In this document: one piece after another, positions 2,839-20,561 of the stretch
Position numbering within the stretch: position 1 is the stretch's first letter
Layout: each line of letters starts with the position of its first letter
Source of the DNA: a virus
Direction: 5' to 3' (one strand)
IMG/VR virus record: IMGVR_UViG_3300049596_000908
Coordinates: 1 to 24,935 of that record
Length of the DNA stretch: 24,935 bases
Position numbers and translations under genes: made by a program
The notes under the pieces: model-generated
Database searches by the model: none
Told to the model about the DNA's origin: nothing
Seen by the model: the letters and a program-made list of their open reading frames with translations, nothing else

Positions 2839-3870
2839 ATGGGTTTACCAAAAAATTATAAAAAATATGTTAACATAACTCCTCATAAACAAGGTTTTGA
2901 GCAGAGACAAAGTATACTTGATGAAATTTCCGATAAGGGAACTTATCTACCTAAAGGTATTTTACATGAAGATATGGATAGTGAAATGATTAACTACGTA
3001 AATAATGATATAGATTTAAGTTTGGCGGGAGAAAAAGTTCCTGTTTTATTTTTAAGTGCACAAAGATGGGCGGAATTCTCTAAAACTTGGCAATTTACCG
3101 ATATAGATAAAAATATAAAATTACCATTTATTACCATAGTAAGAAAACCTGATGCCCAACAAGGTACTAATTATGCAGGAAAATTTAATATACCTGGTAG
3201 ACCTACCTTCACTTATATGAAGATACCGACATGGGATGGTAATAGAAATGGTTTCGATATTTATAAAATTCCGCAACCAGTATCAGTTGATATTCTATAT
3301 GAGGTTAGATTATTTTGTAATAGGATGAGAGATTTAAATTTTATGAATAGAAAAATGTTAACTTCTTTTTCATCTTTAGAAAAATATATTAAAGTGAATG
3401 GTCACCCAATACCATTAATAATGGATAGTATTGGTGATGAGAGTGTAATATCAAACTTAGATGAGAGGAAGTATTATGTTCAATTATTTACTATAAAAAT
3501 GTTAGGATATTTATTAGACGAAGATGATTTTATAGTAACACCAGCAATAAGTAGAGCAATAAATTTTTTCGAAATTAGTGAAGAATTATATAGGGCATCG
3601 TATCAAGTTAATTTAGATACTAAAAATAATGGGATATGTTTAAATGTTATTTTTAAATCAGGGACAAACAATGTCACAATACCAATAGATATATCTGCAA
3701 CGTATAATGATTTAACAGTGACAAATTCAAATTCAGTTTTATTTAAGAAAAATGGTAGTATTGTAACTTTACCATTTACCGTAAATAACGGAGATCAATT
3801 ATACATTAAGGTTAATAAAACTGATGTTAGTAAATCTTCAGAAGTAGAAATAAGTGGAATAATACTATGA
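2839..3870 (+). CDS. T4 gp15-like tail terminator / sheath stabiliser
   Basis: A 343-residue protein. Its central part resembles T4 gp15: a P-x-x-V-x-x-x-Y-E-V-x-L-F segment (QPVSVDILYEVRLFCNRMRD, residues 146-165), then a helix of the type 'NRKMLTSF', a short 'GHPIPL' loop, and a strand set ending in MLGYLLDEDDFIVTP (221-235). This mirrors 'YELSIFTRYEDDM ... FGNDIPF ... FEVNGWMYP' in T4 gp15 as I remember it. gp15 caps the finished tail tube and sheath and docks it to the neck. The C-terminal ~100 residues (from about 245) look like an added beta-rich domain absent from T4. The next gene begins in an ATGA overlap, so the two are translationally coupled. Confidence 0.6.
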   Translation: MGLPKNYKKYVNITPHKQGFEQRQSILDEISDKGTYLPKGILHEDMDSEMINYVNNDIDLSLAGEKVPVLFLSAQRWAEFSKTWQFTDIDKNIKLPFITIVRKPDAQQGTNYAGKFNIPGRPTFTYMKIPTWDGNRNGFDIYKIPQPVSVDILYEVRLFCNRMRDLNFMNRKMLTSFSSLEKYIKVNGHPIPLIMDSIGDESVISNLDERKYYVQLFTIKMLGYLLDEDDFIVTPAISRAINFFEISEELYRASYQVNLDTKNNGICLNVIFKSGTNNVTIPIDISATYNDLTVTNSNSVLFKKNGSIVTLPFTVNNGDQLYIKVNKTDVSKSSEVEISGIIL

Positions 3871-5696: not shown

Positions 5697-8546
5697 ATGG
5701 CATCAACAGACAGAATTTTTGTGAGTCCAGGTGTGTTCACATCTGAAAAAGACTTAACATTCGTAACTAGACAAGTTGGGGTTACTACGTTGGGACTATT
5801 GGGTGAGACACCTAAAGGACCAGCTTTTGAACCTGTATTCATCTCTAATTACGGTGAATTCATTAGTTATTTTGGTGGACTAAACCCCGAAAAATATAAA
5901 GCTAATGGTTTTAACAAATACGAATTAAATTACATCGCAAAATCGTTCCTATCTCAAACTAATCAATTATATGTTAGTAGAGTTTTAGGTTTATCAGGAT
6001 ATAAAGCTGGTAATGCGTGGTCAATCACACTAGATTCTTCAGAGGATCCAACAACAGAAGGTATTACAAATACAACAAGTTACCCACTACTATTAACATA
6101 TTCCGCAACTACTGCAGGATTACCTGTTACTATGACATTTAATGATCCTAATTTAACTGCATTATATGCGGATGGACAAATTAATGGGTTATTTACATCA
6201 GTAGGTTTATTAAGTACTGGTGACACAATTAATGTAACTACACCATATTATGTTAAAAATGGTTGTAATTTCAGTGGGGCTACATTTGATATGACAGTCC
6301 TTACAAAAGGAAGTGGTTCTACAGGATTTGTAACAGGAACTACAAGTGGTACAGTTGTTAGTTATACCGCAACTTGTTATACAGATATAGATGGTAGTGT
6401 AATTGCTACTTTAAGATCAAGAGGATCTTATGATGGGACAGAAACTTTAACATATGATGTAACAGGTGCTACTGATACATTTATGACTAATACATCATTA
6501 TTACCATCAAACGCATTGGCTTCATTTAATATTACAGGAACCACATTTAATGGGGTAAACTTCAATTATGAAGTTTCTATGGATAGAACTAAAAAGAATT
6601 TCTTACCTAGAGTATTCGGTCAATCTACACAAGATAAAGAAACTGAATTATGGGTAGAAGAAATTTATACTAATGTATTGGAAGATTTGATTAGTGCAGG
6701 TAAAGTTAGAGGTTTAGACACATCATTTGTAGAAATAGGTGGGACAATTACAAATAACCTTAATAATTATTTAGAGGGTTGGAAAACTGCATTATCTCCT
6801 TGGGTTCTTTCGGAAGTTAAGGGTGTTGGTTTAGGTTCAACATTACAAAGGTTATTTAGGTTTGTAACAATATCTGACGGTAATGCCGCAAATCAAGATA
6901 TTAAGTTCTCTATTATAAACATTCAACCTGATAATAAAACATTTGATTTGTTAATTAGAAGTTTTAACGATACAGACGCTAACCCTAATGTAATAGAGAA
7001 ATATTCTTCTTTATCTATGGATAGTAATTCTATTGGATTTATAGGAAGAAAAATCGGTACAATTGATGGTGAATTTCCATTAAGAAGTAAATGTGTTATG
7101 GTTGAATTATGGGACGGAAACGATCCAGATTTAGGTAACCATTTCCCATCAGGATTTGAGGGTGTGTTAAATAGAACATATGTTGGTTCTAATAGAACTG
7201 CATTACCACCAAAAATAGAATATAAAACTAAATACTCAGATTTCAATACATCTAAATTAAGAAAAACTTACTTAGGTTTAAATAGTGATATTGGAGTGGA
7301 TCAGGATTTCTTTGATTATAAAGGGTTAAATGCAGTTAATGACGGTATATATACAGGTAGAACGGATGGGTTCCATTTAGATGTGAACGCAACTGATTCT
7401 TTAATAGATTTAGGTAGTGCAAGTTATGTACCTACTTTACAAGTTGGTATATCAGCATTTACAACTGACTTATCATTAGTAGGTGGACCTTATGAAAAGA
7501 TAGCGTCTAGAAAATTCACTTTCGCACCTTACGGTGGATGGGACGGATGGGACGAATATAGAACTAAAAGAACTAATGGAGATAATTACGTTAAAAACGG
7601 AACTAAAGGAATTTTAGGTTTAAGTAAAGGAATATTTAATACATTTGTCACTAGTGAAGGTGATGACGGAATAACTTCTGATTATTATGCATTTTTAAAT
7701 GGTATTTACACATTTAATAATCCAGAAGCGGTAAATATAAATGTATTTGCAACACCTGGTATCGATTTGAGAGACAATACAAGTTTAATTGAAAATGCAG
7801 TTGATATGGTTGAGACTGATAGAGCGGATTCACTATATATAATTACAACACCTGACGTAGATGTGGATGGGGTTGTATTGTCAGCGGAAGAGGCGGTTGA
7901 TGTCGTAGAAGATTCAGGAATAGATTCTAATTATTCTGCCACATATTGGCCTTGGTTACAAATGAATGATACAGAAAACAACAGATACGTATGGTTACCA
8001 CCAACTGTAGAAGTTGTAAGAAACATCGCATTGACTGATAATGTTGCATTCCCTTGGTTCGCAGCAGCAGGTTTAAATAGAGGTACAACTACCGCAATTA
8101 AAGCTAGAGTTAAACTTAAATTAGACGAAAGAGATAATTTATATGAAGGTAGAATTAATCCTATGGCGACATTCTCTGATGTAGGGGTTGTTATCTTTGG
8201 TAATAAAACATTACAAGTTAGAGAAAGTGCACTTAATAGAATTAACGTTAGAAGATTGTTACTACAAGCTAGAAAACTTATATCTGCAGTATCTATCAGA
8301 TTGTTGTTTGAACAAAATGATGATGTAGTAAGAAATCAGTTCTTAAGTTTAGTTAACCCAATATTAGATAATATCAGAAAAGAAAGAGGATTAACTGATT
8401 TTAGAGTAACATTAGATGATACACCAGAATCTATTGACAGAAACGAATTAAACGGAAGAATATTTATCAAACCAACTAGATCATTAGAATTTATTTCGAT
8501 AGAATTTAATATCACTAACACAGGTGCTAGTTTTGATAACATTTAA
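5697..8546 (+). CDS. Tail sheath protein (T4 gp18-like), enlarged
   Basis: A 949-residue contractile-tail sheath subunit. The N-terminus has the usual sheath opening, VSPGVFTSEKD (9-19), then GLLGETPKGPAFEPV and a FxSYFGG segment. The C-terminal ~170 residues carry the conserved sheath core: NPMATFSDVGVVIFGNKTLQ, then INVRRLLL and RSLEFISIEF close to the end. T4 gp18 has 659 residues, so about 290 are added. A Thr/Gly/Ser-rich, beta-looking stretch at roughly residues 115-310 is the obvious candidate for an inserted surface domain. The protein polymerises around the tail tube and contracts at infection. Start choice is supported by the A-rich leader immediately upstream. In most contractile phages the tube gene follows directly; here it is 5.2 kb away. 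Confidence 0.96.
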   Translation: MASTDRIFVSPGVFTSEKDLTFVTRQVGVTTLGLLGETPKGPAFEPVFISNYGEFISYFGGLNPEKYKANGFNKYELNYIAKSFLSQTNQLYVSRVLGLSGYKAGNAWSITLDSSEDPTTEGITNTTSYPLLLTYSATTAGLPVTMTFNDPNLTALYADGQINGLFTSVGLLSTGDTINVTTPYYVKNGCNFSGATFDMTVLTKGSGSTGFVTGTTSGTVVSYTATCYTDIDGSVIATLRSRGSYDGTETLTYDVTGATDTFMTNTSLLPSNALASFNITGTTFNGVNFNYEVSMDRTKKNFLPRVFGQSTQDKETELWVEEIYTNVLEDLISAGKVRGLDTSFVEIGGTITNNLNNYLEGWKTALSPWVLSEVKGVGLGSTLQRLFRFVTISDGNAANQDIKFSIINIQPDNKTFDLLIRSFNDTDANPNVIEKYSSLSMDSNSIGFIGRKIGTIDGEFPLRSKCVMVELWDGNDPDLGNHFPSGFEGVLNRTYVGSNRTALPPKIEYKTKYSDFNTSKLRKTYLGLNSDIGVDQDFFDYKGLNAVNDGIYTGRTDGFHLDVNATDSLIDLGSASYVPTLQVGISAFTTDLSLVGGPYEKIASRKFTFAPYGGWDGWDEYRTKRTNGDNYVKNGTKGILGLSKGIFNTFVTSEGDDGITSDYYAFLNGIYTFNNPEAVNINVFATPGIDLRDNTSLIENAVDMVETDRADSLYIITTPDVDVDGVVLSAEEAVDVVEDSGIDSNYSATYWPWLQMNDTENNRYVWLPPTVEVVRNIALTDNVAFPWFAAAGLNRGTTTAIKARVKLKLDERDNLYEGRINPMATFSDVGVVIFGNKTLQVRESALNRINVRRLLLQARKLISAVSIRLLFEQNDDVVRNQFLSLVNPILDNIRKERGLTDFRVTLDDTPESIDRNELNGRIFIKPTRSLEFISIEFNITNTGASFDNI

Positions 8547-8598: not shown

Positions 8599-8883
8599 AT
8601 GAAAATTAGAAAAAACGGTAAAACGATAAGTTTATCTGAATCAGATATGAAGAGAATCGTAAACAAACTTTTGAAGGAAGAATCAGATCCAAAAGAAGAT
8701 TTAGTGAAATGTTGTAAGGATGCAGGTATTAAAGCACCTATGTCTTGTATATCAGGAGACTTTGCTAAATGTATTAAGGAAGTTGGGGAAATGATACTTA
8801 CGGATCCTGTGGGTGAAGGTATGAAAGCTATTACTGCACTAAATTGTCTTAAAGACAAACAAAATTCAAGTGTACAACACTAA
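8599..8883 (+). CDS. Small Cys-rich protein with leader motif (hypothetical)
   Basis: This 94-residue protein is not recognised by function. It begins with the leader shared by four other proteins in this window (ISLSESDMKRIVNKLLKEE, residues 10-28). Next comes a helical region with five cysteines (38, 39, 50, 58, 83), a number and spacing that would allow disulfides or metal binding. No signal peptide or membrane segment is visible. The leader resembles N-termini I recall from many hypothetical proteins of uncultured marine phages (RLTESDL-RIV-type), but I cannot verify that here. It lies 52 bp after the sheath gene with an A-rich leader and no promoter motif, so it may be expressed by read-through. 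A small virion-internal protein is my best guess. Confidence 0.7.
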   Translation: MKIRKNGKTISLSESDMKRIVNKLLKEESDPKEDLVKCCKDAGIKAPMSCISGDFAKCIKEVGEMILTDPVGEGMKAITALNCLKDKQNSSVQH

Positions 8884-8911
8884 TAATAACCCTTTTCAAT
8901 TTAGACGTTGA

Positions 8912-8941
8912 CGAATCTTTATATAGTTCGGATTCTTTTTT
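8912..8941 (+). terminator. Possible weak terminator
   Basis: GAATC (8913-8917) can pair with GATTC (8931-8935), followed directly by six T residues. The stem is only 5 bp with a 13-nt loop, so this is weak. Confidence 0.25.
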
Positions 8942-8992
8942 GATTTTACATATATCAGATATATTAAACAAATATACGATTCTTTTTTGATT
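8931..8992 (+). repeat. Direct repeat GATTCTTTTTTGATT, two copies
   Basis: An exact 15-nt repeat occurs at 8931-8945 and 8978-8992, 47 bp apart, in the 194-bp gap between genes. Purpose unknown; it may reflect duplication of a terminator-like segment. Confidence 0.5.
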
Positions 8993-9027
8993 ATACAAAA
9001 ATTAATGTGTATTTATTTTTCAATAAC

Positions 9028-9054
9028 AAAAACCCAACTTAGATTGGGTTTTTT
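9028..9054 (+). terminator. Strong intrinsic terminator
   Basis: AAAAACCCAA (9028-9037) pairs perfectly with TTGGGTTTTT (9044-9053) around the 6-nt loop CTTAGA, and the 3' arm ends in six T residues. It closes the sheath / small-protein unit just before the ATATTTAT motif of the next gene. Confidence 0.85.
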
Positions 9055-9065
9055 ACTTAATCACA

Positions 9066-9073
9066 ATATTTAT
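9066..9073 (+). promoter_or_regulatory. ATATTTAT motif upstream of gene 9078
   Basis: The octamer lies between the strong terminator and the start codon, only 4 bp before ATG. If it is a -10-like element, this message would be leaderless. Confidence 0.3.
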
Positions 9074-9077
9074 TAGT

Positions 9078-12068
9078 ATGAGTAAATTATTTTCAGAAAA
9101 GGAAATTAAAAAATTAAAAAAATTTTTAAGTAATAATTTAATTTCTGAACAAGGAATTGGTAGAAGATTGGTGGATGCGTTAGAAAATAGTTCTTCCGCA
9201 GTTGCTAAAGCTATTAAAAATATTGACCCAAAACTTGCAACTAATTTTTTAAATACCGAAATAAAAAGTTTTGATGATTTATCAAAACATTTAAATGACT
9301 ATAAATCTATATGGAAGTCAACAGGTATTGATTGGGATTACACAAATAAGGCAATTTTATCATTTAAAAAATGGTCAGATAGTGGATTCTTAAAAACTGC
9401 AGATGATAAATTAATTTTACAGGTAATAAATGATTTACCAACGGAAGGTGATGTAAGGGGAATAGCTTTTGACTTATGGAAAAAAAGTAAAGGTACATAC
9501 TCACCAACGAAACCAAAATCACAAACTATTGTAGTTAAAGATAAAAAAAGTGGTAACAATATAGTACAAAAAACTGAAGGTGGTGAGTTAAAAAACTATA
9601 CTATAGATAATGAAGGTAATTTATCAAATATAGATGATACTAAAATAGATTTAGATGTAGATTCTAAAGAAATACCTCAACAAGTATCGGGATTAAAATT
9701 GTCTGACATACCAAAAGATGAGTGGGATATTATAGATGCATCGTTTAAAAAATATGGTTTAGAGGATGACTGGGGGTATGATACAAATACTGGTGAACCT
9801 ATTTATGTTACATTACAGATAAATGGTGAAAACGTAAAATTTTCTTTAAATAGTAAGGGTCCTGAACAGTTTGATAATAAAAAAATTGGTGATGATGATT
9901 TATATGAATCATATAGAGGTGAATACGATAAGACTTTTGAAAATGTTGATTACGGTAAAAAACCAAATCTTGGTGATTGGGTTAAAAATGAAAAAATATT
10001 AAAAGACCCTAAATTAAAAGAAAAGTATGTTTATAGATTCGATGTTTCTTTAGGGGTAAAATTGTTTACTGATCAAATAAACGGTTGGTGGGGTGAATGG
10101 GTTATAGTTAATCCAAAAGAAATCAAAAATTATAGAAAAACTAAAGATTTAGAAGAATTAAAAAATAGTTTATTTCATACAATTTATCATGAATTAACAC
10201 ACGTCATACAACCTAAAAAAAGTTGGGACACATATAAATCAAAAGATTTTGTGGATGGTAAAGAGGCTTGGGAATATTTAAAAGGTAAAAAAGAAAAGAA
10301 ACCCTACAAAAAAGAAGAGGTCGATAAATTAGATTTTTGGCAATGGCAAAGAGAGGATAATGTTGCAGCAGAAAAGGCAATTAAACAATTTGGATTAGAA
10401 AAAAATATAGATACTACTAAGGATTACAGTTGGTTGACTGAATTCGAAAAATGGTCTTTTGAAAATAAAATTATACCTGAAAAATATATTAGTAAGGACT
10501 TAAAACAAATTGACACTCCTAAGTTTAATATAAATTTATTTGGGGATGATGTTAAAATTAGGGCATTAAAATTGTCAATCGATAATTGGTCCGAATTTGG
10601 GGTTGATTATAAAAAAATAAAAACCGATACAGAAAATTTAAATAATAGTCAATTTTTAAAATTCATAGAGAATAATATAACTACTCCTGAAATTGAGAGG
10701 ATTGTAAAAGAATCTGCTAGTGAATTAAGTTATTGGAGTAATGTTAAGGAAATTGAAGCGGAATTCACTGCAAATATTAAAAGTTTATTGGAGTTAGGTA
10801 CTTTAGAAAAAAATAAAGGTTTTGCCACTTTTTTAGTTGATTATCTAAGAGGTACAAATAAATCCCAAAAGTTAGTAGATATCGATTTACAAAAATACAA
10901 AACTTTGTTGGATTCAGAAAAATCATGGATTAATAACCCAACAGGTGTAGAAAAAATAAAAGATTATTTTAAAACATTTATAGATAAATTTTTAAATAAA
11001 AATGTTACTGACCCAGTTAAATTAGGGAATGAATTAAAAGGTGTTGATGGTTGGGTTAATAATATACCAAAAGATTTTTTTGATGTGTTAGGTAAATTAG
11101 AACGTAGATGGAAAAAAATATATCCTGAACAAGCAAAAAAACTTGAGAGTGATTTATATAAACAAGCATATGAATTAATTTCTAAAGGATATCCTGCAAT
11201 ATTACCATTTATTGTTAGTGGTTTAACCGATGATGAGAATGAAACTACCAAAAATGAATCTATTATATATAAAAAGAATTATTTAACTGAATCAATAAAA
11301 AAAACATATTCATTCGATTGGGATGATAATATTTTAAAAATGTCAACAAGAATTCATTTAGAATATAAAGTTGGTGGGTTGCACTGGGTACCTGTTTCAG
11401 TTTCTACTGAACAATTTAGATCCATTAGACATAAATTAGGTGATGAGTTTAGATATACTAATAATGACATATTAGAAGCGTTTAAAGATTTTAGAGAGTA
11501 CGATTCTTTTATAAGAGATGTTAAATATGCAATAGATAGTAGAAGTTACGGACCTAGTTTTAATGATTTTAAAGAGGCTTTAATTAATGGAGATGACTTC
11601 TCTATCATTACTGCTAGATCAAATTCACCACAGTCACTAATAGATGGTATTAAGGTATTAATAGAAAAAAACTTTTCTTATAGTGAAAAAGAAAAAATGA
11701 TGAAGAACCTTAAAGATACATCAATAAATGATTATCTTAAATTACAAGATTATCATCCTGTATCTTCAAAAGAATTTTTAAATAGTTTTGGTTTAGATAT
11801 AACAAGTACTAATCCCGAAAAAGGAAAAGAAATTGCGTTTAGGAATTTTGTGGAAAGAGTTATAGAACAAATTGATGAAATAAAGAATAATCCTGATTTT
11901 GAGGGTATTAGTGTTGGATATAGTGATGACGATTTAAGTAATATAGAGATTATTGAAACTTTAATAAGGGAAGAATTAAGTGTGAAATATCCAGAAATAC
12001 ATTTTAATGTGTTTGATACATCTGACCCAAATAACCCTAAAAAGAAAAGAATTATTATAAAGAAATAG
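9078..12068 (+). CDS. Large multidomain protein: leader, shared module, HELTH metallopeptidase motif, C-terminal HAD-like hydrolase
   Basis: A 996-residue protein. Residues 1-25 form an amphipathic basic leader ending LISEQ. Residues 21-141 are about 78% identical by hand count to residues 32-152 of the protein at 16973. Residues 366-378 (FHTIYHELTHVIQ) contain the zincin HExxH motif (371-375); a plausible third ligand lies in KEIEAEFTA near 557-565. From about 740 to the end there is a HAD-like hydrolase: motif I SFDWDDN (D747, D749), motif II IITARS (T845), motif IV GYSDDD (950-952), with Lys915/917 as a candidate for motif III. Peptidase and phosphatase activities are inferred from motifs. 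The 3' end overlaps the opposed homing endonuclease by 14 bp. Likely a virion cargo or ejected protein; a tail-assembly enzyme is the alternative. Confidence 0.75.
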   Translation: MSKLFSEKEIKKLKKFLSNNLISEQGIGRRLVDALENSSSAVAKAIKNIDPKLATNFLNTEIKSFDDLSKHLNDYKSIWKSTGIDWDYTNKAILSFKKWSDSGFLKTADDKLILQVINDLPTEGDVRGIAFDLWKKSKGTYSPTKPKSQTIVVKDKKSGNNIVQKTEGGELKNYTIDNEGNLSNIDDTKIDLDVDSKEIPQQVSGLKLSDIPKDEWDIIDASFKKYGLEDDWGYDTNTGEPIYVTLQINGENVKFSLNSKGPEQFDNKKIGDDDLYESYRGEYDKTFENVDYGKKPNLGDWVKNEKILKDPKLKEKYVYRFDVSLGVKLFTDQINGWWGEWVIVNPKEIKNYRKTKDLEELKNSLFHTIYHELTHVIQPKKSWDTYKSKDFVDGKEAWEYLKGKKEKKPYKKEEVDKLDFWQWQREDNVAAEKAIKQFGLEKNIDTTKDYSWLTEFEKWSFENKIIPEKYISKDLKQIDTPKFNINLFGDDVKIRALKLSIDNWSEFGVDYKKIKTDTENLNNSQFLKFIENNITTPEIERIVKESASELSYWSNVKEIEAEFTANIKSLLELGTLEKNKGFATFLVDYLRGTNKSQKLVDIDLQKYKTLLDSEKSWINNPTGVEKIKDYFKTFIDKFLNKNVTDPVKLGNELKGVDGWVNNIPKDFFDVLGKLERRWKKIYPEQAKKLESDLYKQAYELISKGYPAILPFIVSGLTDDENETTKNESIIYKKNYLTESIKKTYSFDWDDNILKMSTRIHLEYKVGGLHWVPVSVSTEQFRSIRHKLGDEFRYTNNDILEAFKDFREYDSFIRDVKYAIDSRSYGPSFNDFKEALINGDDFSIITARSNSPQSLIDGIKVLIEKNFSYSEKEKMMKNLKDTSINDYLKLQDYHPVSSKEFLNSFGLDITSTNPEKGKEIAFRNFVERVIEQIDEIKNNPDFEGISVGYSDDDLSNIEIIETLIREELSVKYPEIHFNVFDTSDPNNPKKKRIIIKK
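9138..9497 (+). repeat. Duplicated coding module, copy 1
   Basis: Paralogous with 17066-17425. Inside it, 9355-9448 matches 17283-17376 at 92 of 94 bases, far closer than the flanking parts, which suggests recent duplication or gene conversion. Confidence 0.9.
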
Positions 12069-13662
12069 AATAAACTAAGTTACCACAATCGTATATTTTA
12101 TTTATACCTCTACTTCTCATAATTTCATGTTCAGTTAATTTACTATCATATCCTTTTGAAACCAATACATCTTTTCGAAATTTAAATCTGTATTCTCTTT
12201 TTTTGTTTATAATATAAAAATAATTAGGTTTAGACTCTTTTATTTTAGTAAATCCTAAAATATTGTACAAGTTACCGTTACTCCATCTCATATCTGCGTA
12301 ACTAATTATATTTTTTGGTTTATAAGATTTAATAAAATGATTTAGTAATTTTGATGCACCACCATTTACAGTAAAATTAATTTTATTACAAAATCTTAAT
12401 AATTCCCATTCATAATTTGTACCATTCATAATTTTTCTACCATTACCGAAAGTCATTATGGAGACAAGTTCATCATTATAAAATAATCCGTAGTTTATTT
12501 TACTACCAACAGTACCTTGTATGTGATTATCGTTTAAAAATTTAGTTTTAACTTTAGTAGAAACTTCTTTTATTAAACATTTTCTTGCGTATACCTTTTT
12601 ATCGATTAAACCTAACAAATTTCTAATTCTACTTTTTACAATTTCTTTTTTAGAATCCCACTCGTCTTCAAAAACATGAACTAAACGAATACCTTCTTTA
12701 TTACATTCATTTGTTTTATCAATATGATAATTTTTGTCTTTAAATAAGTCACAATGATAATATAAACCATTTAATTCAAAACCGATATTTTTTTCCTCAA
12801 CTAATATATCAATTTCTTTTCCTTTTAATATATCTCTATTACCTGTCTTTACTGTAAATCCTAAACTACCTATGAAATCACAAAGTTCTTTCTCTTTAAT
12901 AGATCTTAACTCACTTACAGGATTACAGATAGTACAAGAGTTTAAATTATTATCAAAACGATAGAATAATAAACTTCTATCTATTTCATAATCATTAACA
13001 CATTTATCACATTTTAATGTGACATAAGTACCCTTATCATTAATAATATTTAATGATTTATATTTTTCATTGAATTTTTTAAGTTTAGATGTTACATTAT
13101 TTTCCCTATACCCATAAGAAATTAAGTTTGTTGTAACACCATATTTTTTTAAATTAGTGTTTTTCTTTTTTTCTTTAACAGATTCTAAACAATTTGGGTT
13201 GTGAACACCTAACTTTTCCGTAGTTTTCATTTTTATAAATTCTTTGTTTTTGAAGATATTATCTACACCATACCTTTCTTTAGTCGTAATTTTTACTTTA
13301 TTTTTTATTTCTTCATTTTTCATAGGATGTCCATTATACTTTTTAGTAAAAGTATTTTTTATTTTTTCCCTATGTGACTCTGAAGAATTAGTACACTTTA
13401 ATGAACAATATACACCATATCCCTCTTTTAAACTTTTTTTAAATTTTAATTCTTTCCCACAGTGATTACATTTTGGTTTTGAGGATATGTCATGTATAAA
13501 TAAAAATATTTTTTCCTTAAAAAATAAATTTTTATCTAAATTATTTTTTTCTATGAATAAATTTATTTCATTAAAAATATTATTATATTTTTTTTTAATA
13601 TATTCTTCTCTAGTTTTTAAACCAGATTTATTATCTAATAAAAAAAATTTTTTAAAATCCAT
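12055..13662 (-). CDS. Free-standing homing endonuclease (EDxHD / Vsr-like type)
   Basis: A 535-residue protein. Residues 65-90 form a zinc-binding knuckle (CNHC ... YCSLKC), and a second Cys set is at 218/221 and 243/246. Between them are several repeats of the type K-x-K-Y/L-G-V-x-N (for example TTKERYGVDNIFKN and TTEKLGVHNPNCLE), typical DNA-recognition repeats of phage homing enzymes. The nuclease core follows at about 255-335: KEIDILVEEKNIGFELNGLYYH, then HIDKTNECNKEGIRLVHVFEDEW. This is the pattern of EDxHD endonucleases such as I-Bth0305I, related to Vsr. It lies on the opposite strand to all neighbours and overlaps the end of gene 9078. Such genes spread by cutting and recombining into related genomes and usually serve themselves only. 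The surrounding frames are intact, so no intron is evident. Confidence 0.85.
   Translation of the reverse strand: MDFKKFFLLDNKSGLKTREEYIKKKYNNIFNEINLFIEKNNLDKNLFFKEKIFLFIHDISSKPKCNHCGKELKFKKSLKEGYGVYCSLKCTNSSESHREKIKNTFTKKYNGHPMKNEEIKNKVKITTKERYGVDNIFKNKEFIKMKTTEKLGVHNPNCLESVKEKKKNTNLKKYGVTTNLISYGYRENNVTSKLKKFNEKYKSLNIINDKGTYVTLKCDKCVNDYEIDRSLLFYRFDNNLNSCTICNPVSELRSIKEKELCDFIGSLGFTVKTGNRDILKGKEIDILVEEKNIGFELNGLYYHCDLFKDKNYHIDKTNECNKEGIRLVHVFEDEWDSKKEIVKSRIRNLLGLIDKKVYARKCLIKEVSTKVKTKFLNDNHIQGTVGSKINYGLFYNDELVSIMTFGNGRKIMNGTNYEWELLRFCNKINFTVNGGASKLLNHFIKSYKPKNIISYADMRWSNGNLYNILGFTKIKESKPNYFYIINKKREYRFKFRKDVLVSKGYDSKLTEHEIMRSRGINKIYDCGNLVYSISL
12055..13662 (-). mobile_element. Homing endonuclease insertion between tail genes
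   Basis: The endonuclease gene forms a single opposed cassette of about 1.6 kb separating gene 9078 from the tube gene. No terminal repeats or intron-like folds were seen, so the element is defined by the gene alone. Confidence 0.6.
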
Positions 13663-13678
13663 TTTTTTAAAGTTTGTG

Positions 13679-13686
13679 ATATTTAT
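13679..13686 (+). promoter_or_regulatory. ATATTTAT motif upstream of tail tube gene
   Basis: The octamer (GATATTTATAAG) lies 59 bp before the tube ATG and 16 bp from the divergent endonuclease ATG, where the minus strand reads TTATAAATATC. It could serve either gene. Confidence 0.35.
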
Positions 13687-13745
13687 AAGTAAAGATAAGT
13701 AAAATAATTAATACTTACAATAATAAATATTAAAAAAAATAAAAA

Positions 13746-14234
13746 ATGGCAGATTTATTAATGAGAATGCCTGTTCCTTACGAACCGTTAAGAAAGAATA
13801 GGTTTATTTTGAGATTTCCAGATGAATTGGGAATTCAAGAATGGTGGGTATCTACAACTAACCGACCAAAATATACGAGTCAAGAGGTGGAGATACCTTT
13901 TTTAAATACTTCTACATATGTAATTGGTAGATTTAACTGGGAATCAATCTCTGTAACTTTTAGAGATCCTATTGGTCCTTCTGCTACTCAGGCTTTGATG
14001 GAGTGGGTTCGTTTACACTCTGAATCTGTAACAGGTAGACAAGGTTACGCTGCAGGTTATAAGAAAGATATCGAGTTAGAGATGTTAGACCCAACAGGTG
14101 TAGTGGTTCAAAAATGGATTTTACAAGGTACACAATTAAACGATGTGGATTTTGGATCATTAGATTATTCATCTTCTGATTTGGCAGATATTACCGCAAC
14201 ACTTCGTTTTGATAGAGCAATAAGTGTATTCTAA
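13746..14234 (+). CDS. Tail tube protein (T4 gp19-like)
   Basis: At 162 residues it almost equals T4 gp19 (163). The N-terminus PYEPLRKNRFILRFPDEL (12-29), the segment WESISVTFRDPIGPSA followed by a helix 'MEWVRLHSES', and the late strand pair GTQLNDVDFGSLDYSSSDLA are characteristic of the contractile-phage tube subunit. It forms hexameric rings stacked on the baseplate within the sheath, and DNA passes through the lumen. The A-rich leader with eight and five A residues directly before ATG supports the start. The gene stands alone between its own motif and a terminator, which fits the need for high expression. Unusually, it is flanked on both sides by the leader-bearing cargo-like genes. Confidence 0.95.
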   Translation: MADLLMRMPVPYEPLRKNRFILRFPDELGIQEWWVSTTNRPKYTSQEVEIPFLNTSTYVIGRFNWESISVTFRDPIGPSATQALMEWVRLHSESVTGRQGYAAGYKKDIELEMLDPTGVVVQKWILQGTQLNDVDFGSLDYSSSDLADITATLRFDRAISVF

Positions 14235-14287
14235 TTTTTAGAATGACATATATATTTAATTAATCCCATCTTTAGGTGGGATTTTTT
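14228..14287 (+). terminator. Tail tube terminator (two hairpins)
   Basis: The main hairpin pairs AATCCCATC (14262-14270) with GGTGGGATT (14275-14283) around the tetraloop TTTA, with one G-U pair, and ends in six T residues (14282-14287). A smaller A/T hairpin ATTCTAA/TTAGAAT (14228-14244) overlaps the tube stop codon. Confidence 0.85.
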
Positions 14288-14298
14288 ATTTTTATCTA

Positions 14299-14306
14299 AT
14301 ATTTAT
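14299..14306 (+). promoter_or_regulatory. ATATTTAT motif upstream of gene 14326
   Basis: The octamer in TAATATTTATATA lies 11 bp after the tube terminator and 19 bp before the next ATG. This is the same terminator-motif-start arrangement as at 9028-9078. Confidence 0.4.
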
Positions 14307-14325
14307 ATATTAGAATAATTGTAAT

Positions 14326-16164
14326 ATGAAAAAAAAAATCTTCATAACAGAAAATCAATATAATAGAATATTTTTAAAAGAAGAAACTAAATCATCTACT
14401 AATGATGAGGTTGAGTCTACTAAAAATTTTTTAAGAAGTAATGGTTGGCCCAATTCATTAATAGGTGGTTCATTGTCAGCCAATCATGTTTTTGCTCAAT
14501 CAGCATTAAATGCTATAAAGGAATTAAATAATGTTTATATCGCACAAAAAGTAATTACAGGTACCAAAGGTATGTATGATGTTTGTATTGCAAAATCGGA
14601 ATTAGGTACATGTAATGTGGCAGCGGGAGGTGGACTATATGTCGCAAAAGATTTCAGTGATTTGGCAGATCAAATATCGGATAAAATGATAGGTAAATTG
14701 AGAGCATCTGATATTGCAAATAACAGAACTATATACTTTCAGTGGGGAAAAATACAAAAAGAATTAGAAGCAACTTTTAAGTATGATAAAAATGCTTGGA
14801 GATCATCTTATTTTCCTGAAGGTTGGTGGAACTTTTTTACTAAGTATTTTGGGACAGATAATTACAGTCAAATAAAAAACAGAATACAAAAAATTGCTAG
14901 TTATGATATTCCATACAATAAAGGAACTTTAAATCAATATGATAAAGCTACCAGTGTATGGGAATATATTGGGGATTGTTTTAGTGACTATCATTGTGCT
15001 TTGGATATCGCTTCTATTGCAGTTCTAGCAATACCAGGAGTTGGGTTAGCGTTAAGTGCAGGAATAGATTTTGCGAATGCTTCTACATATGGAGTAGAGG
15101 CTTTTAATGCGAAAACAAAAGAAGAAAGAGATGCTGCTATAATCGCTGGCGGGTTAACGCTTTTTGGTGGATTTTTAGGAGGAGGTGTTAGTCAAACTAA
15201 TAGAATATTAACTAAAGGTAGTGCAAATATTAAAGTTTATAAATATGCAGATGATGTAATTAAAAGGGTTGATAATGAATTACCTCTTTTAAAAAATGTA
15301 TCAACCAATGTAAAAAATCAAAAATTAGTAAAAATTTATAAAGAAACTGCGGATAAATACGGACTTAGCCAATCTGAAATATTAATCGGACACGATATAA
15401 TTAATAATTTTGCTAAAATTGATCCTAAAGTTGCTAAAATTTACAGTGATGCATTAACAAAAATAGAAAGTAGGGTAGGTAAGGCTAACTTACTTACAGT
15501 TTCAAAAAATAAAAACTTTAAAAATTTAGTTTTACAAAATAATGGTGATGTAGTTACATCATTAAAGGCGTATATGAAAACTGTTGCAGGAAAAGAAGCT
15601 TTACAAGAGTTAGGTATGTATGTTATATTATCAGAGGTTTTAAGTGAACCTGAAGTAGCTAAATGGTTATCGGATAAAATTAATTTAGTTCAACATTCCC
15701 TTAAACCAACTGTACAAACTAATATTAAAAATGATGGTTATGATTGGAAAGCGACTAAAGAAATATTTTTTTCTGATGGATCACTTACAGATAATACATT
15801 ACTTAATAACGCTTATACTAAAGGATGGAGACCTTGGACAAAAAGTGAAGAAATACCGACTGAAGACGATATAAAAAAATCAAGAGAGTGGTTAATAAAT
15901 AACCCTAAATTCCAAACTAAAAAATTTAAGGATTGGTTATCTACACAAACTTCTGAAATAATGAATAAAAGTATAAGTGGTAAAGAAGTATCTAATATAG
16001 AAATGACACCTACCGATGAAAAGGATAGAAAAGAAAATGTTAGGTACGTTGATGATAAAGAAGAGATGAATACATTGTCAGGTGTAGATGACGGTAAAAA
16101 AGGATCGGATGCAATAGATTTATTAGATCAACAACAAGAGGATTATTTAAAAAATCAAAAATGA
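14326..16164 (+). CDS. Leader-bearing protein with glycine-rich hydrophobic helices (putative virion cargo)
   Basis: A 612-residue protein of unknown family. It opens with the shared leader (ITENQYNRIFLKEE, residues 7-20). A globular part with paired cysteines (87/96 and 218/224) follows. Residues 225-250 (ALDIASIAVLAIPGVGLALS ...) and 268-288 (DAAIIAGGLTLFGGFLGGG) are glycine-rich and hydrophobic. A helical domain and a charged tail (from about 560) complete it. The Ile-Pro-Gly-x-Gly pattern followed by D-x-A-N-A-x-x-Y resembles the hydrophobic 'pretoxin' helices in bacterial polymorphic toxins, as I recall them; a membrane-inserting role during DNA delivery is possible but unproven. It is first in a unit of four genes, and its stop overlaps the next start as ATGA. 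Confidence 0.7.
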   Translation: MKKKIFITENQYNRIFLKEETKSSTNDEVESTKNFLRSNGWPNSLIGGSLSANHVFAQSALNAIKELNNVYIAQKVITGTKGMYDVCIAKSELGTCNVAAGGGLYVAKDFSDLADQISDKMIGKLRASDIANNRTIYFQWGKIQKELEATFKYDKNAWRSSYFPEGWWNFFTKYFGTDNYSQIKNRIQKIASYDIPYNKGTLNQYDKATSVWEYIGDCFSDYHCALDIASIAVLAIPGVGLALSAGIDFANASTYGVEAFNAKTKEERDAAIIAGGLTLFGGFLGGGVSQTNRILTKGSANIKVYKYADDVIKRVDNELPLLKNVSTNVKNQKLVKIYKETADKYGLSQSEILIGHDIINNFAKIDPKVAKIYSDALTKIESRVGKANLLTVSKNKNFKNLVLQNNGDVVTSLKAYMKTVAGKEALQELGMYVILSEVLSEPEVAKWLSDKINLVQHSLKPTVQTNIKNDGYDWKATKEIFFSDGSLTDNTLLNNAYTKGWRPWTKSEEIPTEDDIKKSREWLINNPKFQTKKFKDWLSTQTSEIMNKSISGKEVSNIEMTPTDEKDRKENVRYVDDKEEMNTLSGVDDGKKGSDAIDLLDQQQEDYLKNQK

Positions 16165-16349
16165 TAGTTTTAGAAATACAAGAAAGAATAGATAGTATAA
16201 AGAATAGATTAGACGAAATTAATAATTTATTTAATATTTATAATATAAATGATAAAGAGAGTATTGAAATCTTACAAGAAGAAATACAATTATATAAAGA
16301 AGAATTAAAAAATATATTTAATGAAAAACTTAACGGAGCAATTAAATAG
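16161..16349 (+). CDS. Small coiled-coil protein (hypothetical)
   Basis: A 62-residue, almost entirely helical protein (QERIDSIKNRLDEINNLF, and later EEIQLYKEELKNIFNEKL) with heptad-like spacing of Ile and Leu; no cysteines and no leader motif. It begins in an ATGA overlap with the upstream gene, and its last 29 bp overlap the next gene, so coupling is tight on both sides. No function recognised. It could be a chaperone or adaptor for one of the neighbouring large proteins. The conserved-looking overlap structure argues for a real gene despite its size. Confidence 0.6.
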   Translation: MIVLEIQERIDSIKNRLDEINNLFNIYNINDKESIEILQEEIQLYKEELKNIFNEKLNGAIK

Positions 16350-16971
16350 AATTAAAACTTTAATGTTGGTTAACGAACAATGCGGGGTAGATTTGGGACA
16401 ATGTGAAACTGATTTAGAAAATAAAGGATATACGGTATATACTCCAAATGAAAAAAAAGAGGTATGTGACGATAACCCAATTATTAAATGTGTGTATAAT
16501 GTGTTAAATTCTAATGGTATATTAGATTTAATTATAAATTCTACACAATCTTCTTCGAAAGATTGTTATGTTTTAGCAAAGTCTGTAAAAAAAGAAGGTG
16601 GGTTACCTAAGTATCATTTTACATTTTATGCAGATGGTCAAGTATATTTAAGTGTTAAATTAAAAACTAATAACAACAACGATAAGTTAGTATTTGTAGG
16701 TAAATTTGAATGTGACGAATCAAGTAATAATTTAACTATTAATAGATTTAAATATCAAGGTGTTTGGGGTGGTTCTTCGATAATATCTAAAGATGAAAAA
16801 GTAAAAAATGATAGTGGGGAGTCAATTGCAATAAGTAGTACTGAATCAGCCTCATTGAATATTCCCGTTGGAGATTTAATGTATAAAAATTTACTATCTT
16901 GGTTATTTAATTATGATGTAACCACCAATAATACACTTTTAACTAAAATAAAATCTTTATTAACGACATAA
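16321..16971 (+). CDS. Leader-bearing Cys-containing protein (hypothetical, putative virion cargo)
   Basis: A 216-residue protein with the shared leader at the very N-terminus (LTEQLNRIKTLMLVNEQ, residues 4-20). The remainder starts at Cys21 and contains six cysteines (21, 28, 49, 57, 82, 131). The segment from about 95 to 145 is predicted beta-rich by its alternation (YHFTFYADGQVYLSVKL and KLVFVGKFE). No family recognised. It overlaps the coiled-coil gene by 29 bp and ends 1 bp before the next gene's start, so it sits in the middle of a co-translated set. Placement of Cys21 immediately after the E-Q pair of the leader would put it at the new N-terminus region if the leader is removed; this is inference. 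Confidence 0.7.
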   Translation: MKNLTEQLNRIKTLMLVNEQCGVDLGQCETDLENKGYTVYTPNEKKEVCDDNPIIKCVYNVLNSNGILDLIINSTQSSSKDCYVLAKSVKKEGGLPKYHFTFYADGQVYLSVKLKTNNNNDKLVFVGKFECDESSNNLTINRFKYQGVWGGSSIISKDEKVKNDSGESIAISSTESASLNIPVGDLMYKNLLSWLFNYDVTTNNTLLTKIKSLLTT

Positions 16972-16972
16972 T

Positions 16973-19087
16973 ATGAAAGAAAAAATAACATTAAGTGAAG
17001 AATTAGGAAGAATAAAATCTCTTTTTTCTGAAGAAAGATTATATGGTAACATAATAGAAAGTAAGTTATTAACTGAACAAGGGATTGGTAAAAAATTAGC
17101 TGATGCATTAGAGACGGCTAGTTCTTCAATTGCTAAAGCCATTAAAAATGTTGATCCAAAACTCGCAACTAATTTTTTAAATTCAGAAATTAATACTTTT
17201 GGTGATTTAGCAAAACATTTAAACGAGTATAAATCTTTATGGAAATCTATGGGTATTGACTGGGATTATGCAAATGATGCAGTTTTATCATTTAAAAAAT
17301 GGTCAGATAGTGGTTTCTTAAAAACTGCAGATGATAAATTAATTTTACAGGTAATAAATGATTTACCAGCGGAAGGGGATTTAAGAGGTATGGTATTTGA
17401 TTTATGGAAAGAAAGTAAAGGTAAATATACGCCAGCAAAAACTAATCCTAAAACTACTATAGTTACTAAATCTAATACAGGTGAAAATGTGGTTCATAAA
17501 GTAGAAACTGTAGGTGGTAAAGAAAAAATTGAGACTTACACAATAGAGGGTGATGGAATTAAAAAAGATGACAGTTATGATACTAATAGGTCTAGTGAAG
17601 AAGTTAATGCGTATTTTGAAGGTAGAGATATCCCCACATCGACAATTGATAGTGGAGATGTAAAAGGAAATTCTATTTCTAGTGACGAACCAATTAATCC
17701 CAACGGTAATCCTGATGTAATTCAAGGTCAAATGATTGAATTATTAGAGAAAGTTAAGGATTTATTGGATAAAAAAGGAGATTTACCAAAACCTATTACA
17801 CCTAAAGGTTTAGAAGAAGGAATTAGTAATGGTGGTAATTTAATTGTAAAAGGTAACGATGGTAAATTATATAAAGTAGAAAAAGTAGATAACACAATAG
17901 TCACTATTGATGAAAATGGTATTATTATAGATATTAAAGAATTAGGTACCATTGATACAACACCTAAACCTGATCCTATAGAAACTGGTACTAAAAATTA
18001 TGGTGATAAAAATATTCCATCATCAACAAATAAAAATATAGATAAGTCCCTTTTAGGTGTTTTAAGATATGTTTTTCCAGTACTAAGTAGTGGGGTACGA
18101 GGGGTTAGATATATGGGTGATAAACTAAGTCTTTTATCTAAAGGTTATACTAAAAATAGGTATACTCGTTTCCCAAAAAGTACGGATGCTGGTACGTCAA
18201 ATTTCAACGTTGGGGCTAGACTCGGTGAAAATTTGGTAAGAGCTGGTGGAGAACAATTATTTTTAATTTATTTTTACGGTTCTTACAAATTATATCAAAG
18301 AGGTGAAGAAAACCCTTTTGGGTTAGATACATTATTCTCTAAAAAATTGGCAACATATACTTTTTTTTTAAAAGTAACTGTATGGGAAGGGTTTACAAAG
18401 AAAATTAATGATATGTTAAAATATTTTTCTAGTAAAGAAGGAATTAGTGAGTATTGTAAAAATGATTGTGAATTTAATAAAAAAGTTAGTCCATCAGAAG
18501 TAACTAAATCACCTTGTTATATAGAATGTGTCACTAAAACTGAAAAGGCTGCTCAAGAACTTACTGATTTGAAAAATTCGATAGAGAGTTATGCTAACAC
18601 ACTTAAGGAAATTGGTGATTTAGAAAATATGGATGCATCTGAAACAGAAAAATTTTGTTCAGGTGCAGATGGTAAAAAATTAAAATTTACAAATTCTTTA
18701 ACTAAAATGAAAACAAGTATTATAAAATTTGAGAAATACTTGGAAAAACTAAAACAAGATAATCAAATTTTAGGGTATTTTATAGATTTCTTTGGGTTAC
18801 CTAAAGACGCAAAAAATGATGATGTTTTAGATAAAGTATTAACCCCTCCTGGTGAAAAAGAAAGAATTAGTGTATCTCAATTAGAAGAATTGCAAAAACA
18901 AATAGATGAAAGATGTATAGATTGGTACAATAGGGAAGAAAGTGGTGAAATACCTATAAACAATGACGGACCAGTTAATGATACCCCTAATATTGATGGT
19001 GATGGTAAATCTACTGAAGAAAAAGGTGATATGGTATATTTAAATATAAGTATAATACCTATAGAACTTACTGGTGAAGAATCTTAA
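16973..19087 (+). CDS. Leader-bearing protein sharing a module with gene 9078 (putative virion cargo)
   Basis: A 704-residue protein. It has the shared leader (ITLSEELGRIKSLFSEE, residues 5-21), then a second similar end LLTEQ (32-36). Residues 32-152 form the module about 78% identical to gene 9078. A low-complexity Gly/Asp/Thr/Lys linker follows (about 155-350). A more hydrophobic region with aromatic stretches is at about 425-470 (EQLFLIYFYGSYKLYQ, TYTFFLKVTVW). A helical C-terminal region carries CKNDC (495-499) and C515/C519, and later C562 and C648. No catalytic motif is seen. It ends the four-gene unit. Sharing a module with the peptidase/HAD protein, in otherwise unrelated bodies, suggests that the module docks both to the same partner. 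Confidence 0.75.
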   Translation: MKEKITLSEELGRIKSLFSEERLYGNIIESKLLTEQGIGKKLADALETASSSIAKAIKNVDPKLATNFLNSEINTFGDLAKHLNEYKSLWKSMGIDWDYANDAVLSFKKWSDSGFLKTADDKLILQVINDLPAEGDLRGMVFDLWKESKGKYTPAKTNPKTTIVTKSNTGENVVHKVETVGGKEKIETYTIEGDGIKKDDSYDTNRSSEEVNAYFEGRDIPTSTIDSGDVKGNSISSDEPINPNGNPDVIQGQMIELLEKVKDLLDKKGDLPKPITPKGLEEGISNGGNLIVKGNDGKLYKVEKVDNTIVTIDENGIIIDIKELGTIDTTPKPDPIETGTKNYGDKNIPSSTNKNIDKSLLGVLRYVFPVLSSGVRGVRYMGDKLSLLSKGYTKNRYTRFPKSTDAGTSNFNVGARLGENLVRAGGEQLFLIYFYGSYKLYQRGEENPFGLDTLFSKKLATYTFFLKVTVWEGFTKKINDMLKYFSSKEGISEYCKNDCEFNKKVSPSEVTKSPCYIECVTKTEKAAQELTDLKNSIESYANTLKEIGDLENMDASETEKFCSGADGKKLKFTNSLTKMKTSIIKFEKYLEKLKQDNQILGYFIDFFGLPKDAKNDDVLDKVLTPPGEKERISVSQLEELQKQIDERCIDWYNREESGEIPINNDGPVNDTPNIDGDGKSTEEKGDMVYLNISIIPIELTGEES
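17066..17425 (+). repeat. Duplicated coding module, copy 2
   Basis: Paralogous with 9138-9497 in the same orientation, about 7.9 kb apart. The 94-bp core 17283-17376 differs at two bases. Homologous recombination between the copies would delete the endonuclease, tube gene and cargo genes. Confidence 0.9.
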
Positions 19088-19123: not shown

Positions 19124-19900
19124 ATGGATAAAAATAGCTTTAATGACCCAAACTTCGTACCTGAAGATTATAAGGTACCTTACGATATAATAGAATTACC
19201 TTCACAAGGTTTATTATACCCAAATAAAAAAGATAAAATTAAAGTAGAATACTTAACTGCTTTTGATGAAAACATATTGACATCTCCAAATATATTGGCT
19301 AGTGGGAAACTTATAGATGTTTTATTAGAAAGAAAAGTTAAAGATTTAGGATTTGACCATAAATTACTTTTAGAGGGTGATAGAATGGCAATAATTATTT
19401 TCTTAAGAGTTTCCGCATTTGGTGAAAAATATATACAACCTATTATTGATCCTTTTTCTAAAAAGGTGGTAGAAGGAGAAGTTGATTTATCAACTTTAGA
19501 ACAAAAAAAATTAACTGTTAAACCAGACGAGAATGGGTTATTTGATTTCATTCTACCTAAATCAAATAAAAATTTAAAATTTAGATTATTAACAGGTAAA
19601 GATGAGGAAGAAATAGAAATTTTAGATCAACAAATTATGGAAAGATCTAAAAATGAAATTTCCACTAAAACAACTTTAAGGTTAGAAAGGTCTATCATGG
19701 ATATAGACGGTGAAAGAGATAAAATTAAAATATCCAATATTTTAAAAGCGTTACCAATTATGGATATTAGGAATCTTAATAAGTATTTGTTAGAAATTGA
19801 ACCAGGAATTAATTTTAATGTCATTGCTAGGACTCAGGGGGGAGAGTCCGTAAATACCTTTCTTAGAATCAATAAAAATTTATTTTGGCCTGACATCTAA
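19124..19900 (+). CDS. T4 gp26-like baseplate hub / tail assembly protein
   Basis: A 258-residue protein with the hallmark opening of the T4 base-plate protein family around gp26: ELPSQGLLYP (residues 24-33), then EYLTAFDENILTSPNIL and GKLIDVLL, and GDRMAIIIFLRVSAFGEKY (88-106). It ends in INKNLFWPDI. Relatives I remember continue past such an FWP segment into a tail with G-F-S-x-x-D and MP-x-Y-x-R motifs. Here that tail is present but in the +1 frame (see 19854-20027). The family acts in hub assembly. Its position a few genes before the probable tape measure also fits a tail-assembly chaperone of the gpG/gpGT kind. The gene has its own candidate motif and is not coupled to the cargo unit upstream. 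Confidence 0.7.
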   Translation: MDKNSFNDPNFVPEDYKVPYDIIELPSQGLLYPNKKDKIKVEYLTAFDENILTSPNILASGKLIDVLLERKVKDLGFDHKLLLEGDRMAIIIFLRVSAFGEKYIQPIIDPFSKKVVEGEVDLSTLEQKKLTVKPDENGLFDFILPKSNKNLKFRLLTGKDEEEIEILDQQIMERSKNEISTKTTLRLERSIMDIDGERDKIKISNILKALPIMDIRNLNKYLLEIEPGINFNVIARTQGGESVNTFLRINKNLFWPDI

Positions 19901-20063: not shown

Positions 20064-20561
20064 ATGGATATAAATAAGTATTTAAAAACTATAGAAGATA
20101 TAAATATTCTAATAGAAAGTATTTCCACTCAAGATATAGAAGATGTACAGTCTAGTATTGATAGGACTAAAGAGAAGATGGATATTCTAAATGCTCGTAT
20201 TCAAAGTAGATTAGATCAACAAACAACCCAAAAATCACTACCTTTTACTGACATCACAATAGATTTTATTAATGTAACGAAAATTAGCATTAGATCCGCA
20301 GTAGAAAAAACAGAATACGAATTTAATGGTATCGAAGAGTTTAATGTTTTAGATGTTAATAACGATTTTTTAATTTTACAACAAGATGATTGGGATGAAC
20401 GAATTGGCTTAATATTATATCATAGAAATCTTAATACAAATCAGAGACAAAGAACAGATATACAACTTTTTTTTAATAAATACGGTAACCTTACTAGTGG
20501 TGAAAAAACTAGAATTGGTAATAAGGAGGAATCTACTTTTGAGATTAAGAGGTATAGATAA
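20064..20561 (+). CDS. Hypothetical protein between gp26-like gene and tape measure
   Basis: A 165-residue soluble protein of unknown family. The N-terminal ~55 residues are helical with coiled-coil spacing (EDVQSSIDRTKEKMDILNAR), and the rest alternates like a small beta domain (TDITIDFINVTKISIRSAV, EEFNVLDVNNDFLILQQDDW). It ends with a basic tail (FEIKRYR). No catalytic motif, cysteine cluster or membrane segment is visible. The place in the gene order, between the gp26-like gene and the tape measure, is where T4-like phages keep hub and tape-measure assembly factors, so a tail-assembly role is a reasonable guess. The start follows an ATATTTAT motif by 15 bp. The next small gene starts 2 bp after its stop. 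Confidence 0.75.
   Translation: MDINKYLKTIEDINILIESISTQDIEDVQSSIDRTKEKMDILNARIQSRLDQQTTQKSLPFTDITIDFINVTKISIRSAVEKTEYEFNGIEEFNVLDVNNDFLILQQDDWDERIGLILYHRNLNTNQRQRTDIQLFFNKYGNLTSGEKTRIGNKEESTFEIKRYR

Follow-up and report, generated by a model that had tools for sequence, protein, structure and literature searches.

Recurrent short leaders on phage proteins: a putative expanded T4-like capsid-targeting system

Tagged genes in the window and its relatives

The viral record IMGVR_UViG_3300049596_000908, analyzed here over its entire length (24,935 nucleotides; hereafter the window), is a fragment with T4-type tail genes that contains five open reading frames (ORFs) with short N-terminal leaders (8599, 9078, 14326, 16321, and 16973, designated by their first positions). 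An earlier note on this DNA had proposed that one common leader precedes five completely different bodies and serves as a virion-cargo sorting tag cut at its final Glu by a gp21-type protease. Translation confirmed the coordinates and starts of the five ORFs (Table 1), and the annotated tail proteins of the window (sheath 5697, tube 13746, and hub 19124) indeed lacked the leader. The idea of a single leader had to be abandoned, as 8599 and 14326 carried class A leaders, 16321 and 16973 class C leaders, and 9078 a variant. The bodies were also not completely different, since 16973 and 9078 had a domain of approximately 164 residues in common (66% identity), located directly after the leader.

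The variant leader of 9078 was missed by the profiles described below, and its orthologues retained the [LI]-x-E/Q end (LISE/Q, PLNE/Q, and ILSE/Q; the slash marks the predicted cut). Searches of the 9078 protein against Pfam and PHROG gave no family above the cut-off. Orthologues of 8599 in two related records (G001 and G004) retained the leader, and homologues of 14326 in related records were tagged too. The structure of 14326, predicted from seven sequences, had a mean predicted local distance difference test (pLDDT) score of 36. Additionally, a gene encoding an HNH homing endonuclease (phrog_3339) was located on the minus strand between 9078 and the tail tube gene (12055-13662); G005 has one there and G001 does not.

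Table 1. Tagged genes, predicted leaders and cleavage sites, and untagged tail genes of the window (a slash marks a predicted cut).
Feature	Position	Strand	Basis
Tail sheath, untagged flank	5697..8546	+	phrog_23, E 3.5e-61
94-aa tagged ORF, class A leader MKIRKNGKTISLSESDMKRIVNKLLKE/E	8599..8883	+	translation; HMM E 4e-10
Leader of 8599, predicted cut after L-K-E27	8599..8679	+	sequence; T4 gp21 rule L/I-x-E (PMC9026906)
996-aa tagged ORF: variant leader, domain common with 16973, HExxH metallopeptidase-like motif, C-terminal HAD-like (DxD) domain	9078..12068	+	
Leader of 9078, MSKLFSEKEIKKLKKFLSNNLISE/Q, predicted cut after I-S-E24	9078..9149	+	aligned orthologues end PLNE/Q, ILSE/Q
HELTH motif, residues 371-375 of 9078; kept as HExxH in fused orthologues	10188..10202	+	
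Internal predicted cleavage site Y-L-T-E/S directly before HAD-like domain of 9078	11280..11294	+	L736, E738 invariant in all aligned copies
Tail tube, untagged	13746..14234	+	phrog_4542, E 8.5e-26
612-aa tagged ORF, class A leader MKKKIFITENQYNRIFLKE/E	14326..16164	+	HMM E 4.5e-9
Leader of 14326, predicted cut after L-K-E19	14326..14382	+	sequence; gp21 rule
216-aa tagged ORF, class C leader MKNLTEQLNRIKTLMLVNE/Q	16321..16971	+	
Leader of 16321, like scaffold C-terminal tail; predicted cut after V-N-E19	16321..16377	+	
704-aa tagged ORF, class C leader MKEKITLSEELGRIKSLFSE/E; second site LLTE/Q aligned to 9078 site	16973..19087	+	
Leader of 16973 up to second predicted cut (L-T-E35)	16973..17077	+	sequence; alignment to 9078
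Baseplate hub, untagged flank	19124..19900	+	phrog_150, E 6.7e-5

Three recurrent leader classes were recognized, namely A (ITENQ-KRLI-E), C (LTEELNRIK-LM), and D (IRKILKEE). Profile hidden Markov models (HMMs), seeded from these classes and iterated on N-terminal 45-mers, matched 106 of the 1107 N-terminal 45-mers of ten related records and the window, compared with 16 of 6403 internal 45-mers, and several of the internal matches were leaders within fused proteins or behind mis-called starts. These counts rule out chance or compositional similarity as the origin of the leaders.

The relative G001 (IMGVR_UViG_3300042868_007959, 254 kb), whose sheath is 99% identical to that of the window, was read whole and gave 37 profile matches, one of which was probably a false match to a lipoprotein. 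The remaining 36 ORFs, far more than the five genes initially noticed, span 30 kb. Together with 15 ORFs having similar ends, which were hand-picked by judgement rather than by a test, they amount to 51 ORFs, or 17% of the genome. Simple whole-gene duplication was rejected, as most tagged bodies of G001 had no detectable similarity to one another.

Strict DNA patterns of the leaders occurred in 57 stretches of viral contigs for MKIIITE-x-Q and in at least 120 for RMQ-x-LAGIITE; among the matches listed (1020 ORFs), copies of the latter motif were N-terminal in 111 cases, C-terminal in 5, and internal in 4. In tblastn searches of the short tags against cultured phages, the RMQ-x-LAGI tag was found solely in Flavobacterium phage vB_FspM_immuto (hereafter immuto), and the class A tag had no match. 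Tag-like sequences at C-termini (SMLNE/IRRIKEMMI and SMLNE/IKRIKEIMK in L226, 3220-3918 and 3915-4685, and a class A copy in L222, 4842-5270) suggest that tags can be C-terminal too. A short distance downstream of its capsid gene, the 484-kb uncultured phage LR756508 has a tandem run of approximately seven ORFs (L231, 22697-28576) that begin with short sequences of the MRLKEILLE or MKFKELLKE type; their bodies are seemingly related and had no match in Pfam.

Fifty tagged ORFs of G001 contained six Pfam families at E 1e-3, of which only Peptidase_M23 and PG_binding_1 were clear, whereas 129 untagged ORFs yielded 57 families at E 1e-8, many of them involved in metabolism, replication, and transcription (including IMPDH, thymidine kinase, NAPRTase, dUTPase, sigma factors, and methylases). 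The earlier note had held that an equal occurrence of the leader in early metabolic proteins would speak against a sorting tag; by Pfam, no replication or nucleotide-metabolism family was found among the tagged ORFs.

The sheath, tube, and hub were 99-100% identical between the window and G001, and the tagged bodies of 16321 and 16973 were 40% and 47% identical, with leaders at 86% and 68%. The DNA identity of the two records stops within 16321, the tagged G001 genes 191932 and 197122 have no counterpart in the window, and the content of the tagged island between sheath and hub varies among the ten records compared. An arms race has been proposed for the internal proteins of T4 (PMC9026906), and the rapid turnover of tagged bodies would fit such a process. 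Elsewhere in the window, two genes without a leader core (3867-5396 and 20064-20561) had a 5' part nearly identical to G001 and were strongly diverged in the rest, while several neighbors were 97-100% identical. The G001 genome also harbored 28 tRNA genes, all on the minus strand, at approximately 75.6-77.6 kb and 91.1-94.4 kb (L087 and L088; ARAGORN).

Predicted cleavage and likeness to prohead peptides

The gp21 protease of T4 cuts after L/I-x-E, and the internal proteins of T4 carry propeptides of 10-19 residues named capsid-targeting sequences (CTSs) (PMC9026906). In our set, 79 of 84 leaders had [ILVMF]-x-E within 14 residues of the core, compared with 22-27% of background windows, and P3 was mostly L or I (also F, V, or M). 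Since the profiles themselves include this end, we ran a second test that used only the core upstream of it: the motif followed 31 of 33 class A and 16 of 20 class C cores at N-termini, and 6 of 10 and 3 of 11, respectively, at internal matches. Cuts were predicted mostly after approximately 10-27 residues, and after 35 for the second site of 16973.

A gp21-type protease was sought near capsid genes, as the earlier note had advised. The gp21 family (PF03420) was identified adjoining the capsid gene of G001 (E 4e-24) and in two other records, that is, in 3 of the first 15 related records. Among records picked by their leaders, every one that contained gp23 also contained gp21 (9/9 in a set of 20 and 5/5 in a set of 18, or 14/14); the rest had neither gene and may be fragments. 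The capsid propeptides end in LLNE/S (G001), LLTE/A (G009), IVSE/A (immuto), LINE/A, and similar sequences, in a site homologous to that of T4 gp23, which reads FLTE/A at its known cut. The capsid sites and the leaders have the same [LI]-x-E end.

The site was also retained where tagged genes had fused. In G005, G007, G009, and G011, the HAD-like domain that 9078 has at its C-terminus is encoded by a gene of its own, which opens with a leader-like sequence. L-x-E stands directly before this domain in every fused and separate copy (YLTE/S, YLVE/S, LLTE/F, LLKE/F, and LLLE/F), while the flank varies. A fusion protein with a 14326-type body in front, a 16321-type body after it, and a complete internal class C leader occurs in G002 and apparently also in G004. 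The adjacent tagged G001 genes 131816 and 132375 form a single ORF in G008 and G011, with class D-like and class A-like segments at its two junctions; thus, the second body (132375) bears different tag classes in different genomes.

What is new here is the likeness of the tags to peptides of the phage's own prohead interior. A class C profile trained on N-termini only was run over 1248 C-terminal 30-mers, and scaffolds (gp22-like, taken as the ORF immediately upstream of the capsid gene) occupied ranks 1, 3, 6, 8, 9, 19, 20, 22, 23, and 24, with tails such as LNE/STAYVDPQITAIKDLMRRIS and LIE/SKTYENPQFLRMKDLMSKIK or DPQLENQIKRMKDLMNYS. As scaffolds within a lineage are homologous, these ranks represent a few independent cases rather than ten. 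In immuto, a cargo leader (MKKQILSEQFKRMQKLAGIITE/S) and the scaffold tail (EIISE/VSEQVSRWQKLAGIIK) scored 50 when compared, the next non-tagged protein 36, and shuffled proteins at most 31. Tag and scaffold tail co-varied, with (R)IK-x-LM in one lineage and RMQ-x-LAGI in another.

As an independent test of the scaffold tail, five records were chosen solely by an RMQ-x-LAGIITE leader and a capsid gene. All five scaffolds ended in this type of motif (KRMQKIAGIIK, TRMQKIAGIIK, ARWKVLAGIKK, ARFQKLAGII, and ARMKKLAGL), each preceded by [LI]-x-E. Among 1872 proteins of at least 100 aa, 18 had the scaffold-tail motif within the last 20 residues, and these were mostly scaffolds, with one gp21 and a few other families. 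The order is motif-[LI]xE/body in tags and body-[LI]xE/motif in scaffolds, so a cut would separate the motif from the body in both. A different protein, a 319-aa family (L239 6096-7055, L306 8182-9141, L267 9976-10935, and L271 771-1730), also has a scaffold-like tail, ending in LKEE-x-DFD...YRMKKLAGL.

For class A, we scanned 13 capsid proteins with a matrix built from short leaders (ITENQFKRLINE/S), and the best position in the whole protein was the propeptide end in 13 of 13 (LYENQASALLNE/S, LLENQYQQLLKE/A, and ILENQAKQLVVE/S). On the untagged proteome of G001, the same matrix ranked the capsid protein fourth of 270. This likeness may reflect propeptide mimicry or a longer gp21 recognition site. 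Classes A and D were rejected as copies of the scaffold, with profile scores no higher than those of shuffles.

Weighing of the interpretations

Taken together, these results make it quite probable, judging from sequence, that the leaders constitute an expanded T4-like capsid-targeting system for prohead targeting and gp21 cutting. A leader resembling a peptide already present in the prohead, namely the C-terminal tail of the gp22-like scaffold for class C and probably the end of the major-capsid propeptide for class A, would draw the tagged protein into the prohead core. The gp21-type protease would cut after [I/L/V]-x-E and free the body inside the head, from which it would presumably be ejected with the DNA and carried into the next host cell. 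We infer that the proteins are incorporated, cut, and ejected, as well as what the tag binds. The sorting tag with gp21-type cutting envisaged by the earlier note is supported by the protease, the matching capsid site, and the lack of replication and nucleotide-metabolism families on tagged ORFs, and its analogy to contractile injection systems is not needed.

We lean slightly towards a broader form of this reading, a general addressing code in a broad group of T4-like phages, in which any protein headed by a copy of the capsid- or core-binding tail of the scaffold (or of the propeptide end) would be packaged and the protease would remove the address. Jointly with this, tag and scaffold tail would co-evolve as a lineage-specific code, and approximately 50 proteins would be delivered by a single jumbo phage.

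Several points weigh against capsid targeting. No proteomics were found for these phages, and virion location is deduced. The window itself holds no gp21, scaffold, or capsid gene, all of which lie outside the 24.9-kb fragment, and its tagged genes sit amid tail genes rather than head genes. The scaffold of the window lineage (ITAIKDLMRRIS) ranked only approximately 19th-24th in the class C search, and the likeness to scaffold tails concerns a short motif that reaches strong significance only with several lineages taken together. A partner likeness for class D was looked for and none was found, and the class A likeness to the capsid could merely be an extended gp21 recognition site. In addition, the tags differ in sequence from the CTS of T4, and approximately 50 cargo proteins in one head are many beside the four or so of T4.

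The leader might instead be a gp21 cleavage cassette only, with bodies that reach the prohead by themselves and a peptide that provides a site for processing or activation. The [LI]-x-E end is the most constant part across classes, and the class A likeness to the capsid propeptide can be read in this way. However, the upstream part of class C copies the tail of the scaffold, in which the motif has its cut on the opposite side, so that this motif is not just protease context; moreover, the bodies are unrelated and exchanged behind the tag, and the CTS of T4 targets foreign proteins (PMC9026906). We regard a cassette alone as unlikely.

That the tagged proteins are loaded into the tail tube or baseplate instead of the head appears very unlikely, even though all ten records compared have the tagged island between sheath and hub and an M23 peptidase domain occurs in one tagged protein of G001. 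Most tagged G001 genes are located outside this island, other records have tagged ORFs between the portal, gp21, scaffold, and capsid genes, the head protease of T4 works in the prohead, and scaffold and capsid propeptides contain matches to the tag motifs. A leader that directs proteins to the host membrane, a replication compartment, or a chaperone, or that controls turnover, with a coincidental gp21-like end, would suit bodies that mostly have no known function and whose virion placement is putative, but is likewise highly improbable given the lack of replication or nucleotide-metabolism families on tagged proteins, the presence of gp21 in all 14 leader-picked records with a capsid gene, the motifs common to scaffold and capsid, and the site retained in fused genes.

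If capsid targeting holds, head-packed proteins could be listed from sequence alone for many uncultured phages. Approximately 17% of a 254-kb genome would then encode virion cargo. As much of this cargo evolves fast and has no known domains, it would provide a rich source of candidate proteins for host takeover or for blocking defence at infection.

Comparison with known systems

No description of these leaders was found in the literature, with subscription literature outside the search, and the search found nothing on engineered P22 scaffold-tag packaging. The isolate immuto has gp21, a scaffold, and a capsid protein, and its leaders (RMQ-x-LAGIITE, FDLKKFLVEN, and KKSQLRxIIKE) follow the same logic; they occur on ORFs that look like cargo and on others that lie between the portal and capsid genes. 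It differs in having fewer tagged ORFs, mostly annotated as hypothetical proteins, and another tag vocabulary.

The giant phages phiKZ and SPN3US also have large cargo, which a distant relative of gp21 cuts after Glu (PMC10052503, PMC9026906), whereas gp21 here is a direct match to PF03420. SPN3US follows an A-x-E rule with propeptides of mostly 111-254 residues and no common short tag (PMC10052503); in the leaders analyzed here, P3 is L, I, F, V, or M and the predicted propeptides are short.

The closest parallels are with the CTS of T4 (IPI, IPII, IPIII, and Alt; PMC9026906), namely a short N-terminal propeptide with an L/I-x-E end in front of unrelated bodies, head genes of the gp20/21/22/23 type, and bodies that vary fast between relatives. 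Unlike in T4, where approximately four proteins are tagged, there are approximately 36-50 tagged ORFs here, in several tag classes that look different apart from the L/I-x-E end. The leaders also differ from the T4 CTS in resembling the scaffold tail and the capsid propeptide of the same phage and in having occasional C-terminal and internal copies. If this mode of action, the copying of scaffold and capsid-precursor peptides, is true, it would make the binding partner of the T4 CTS testable.

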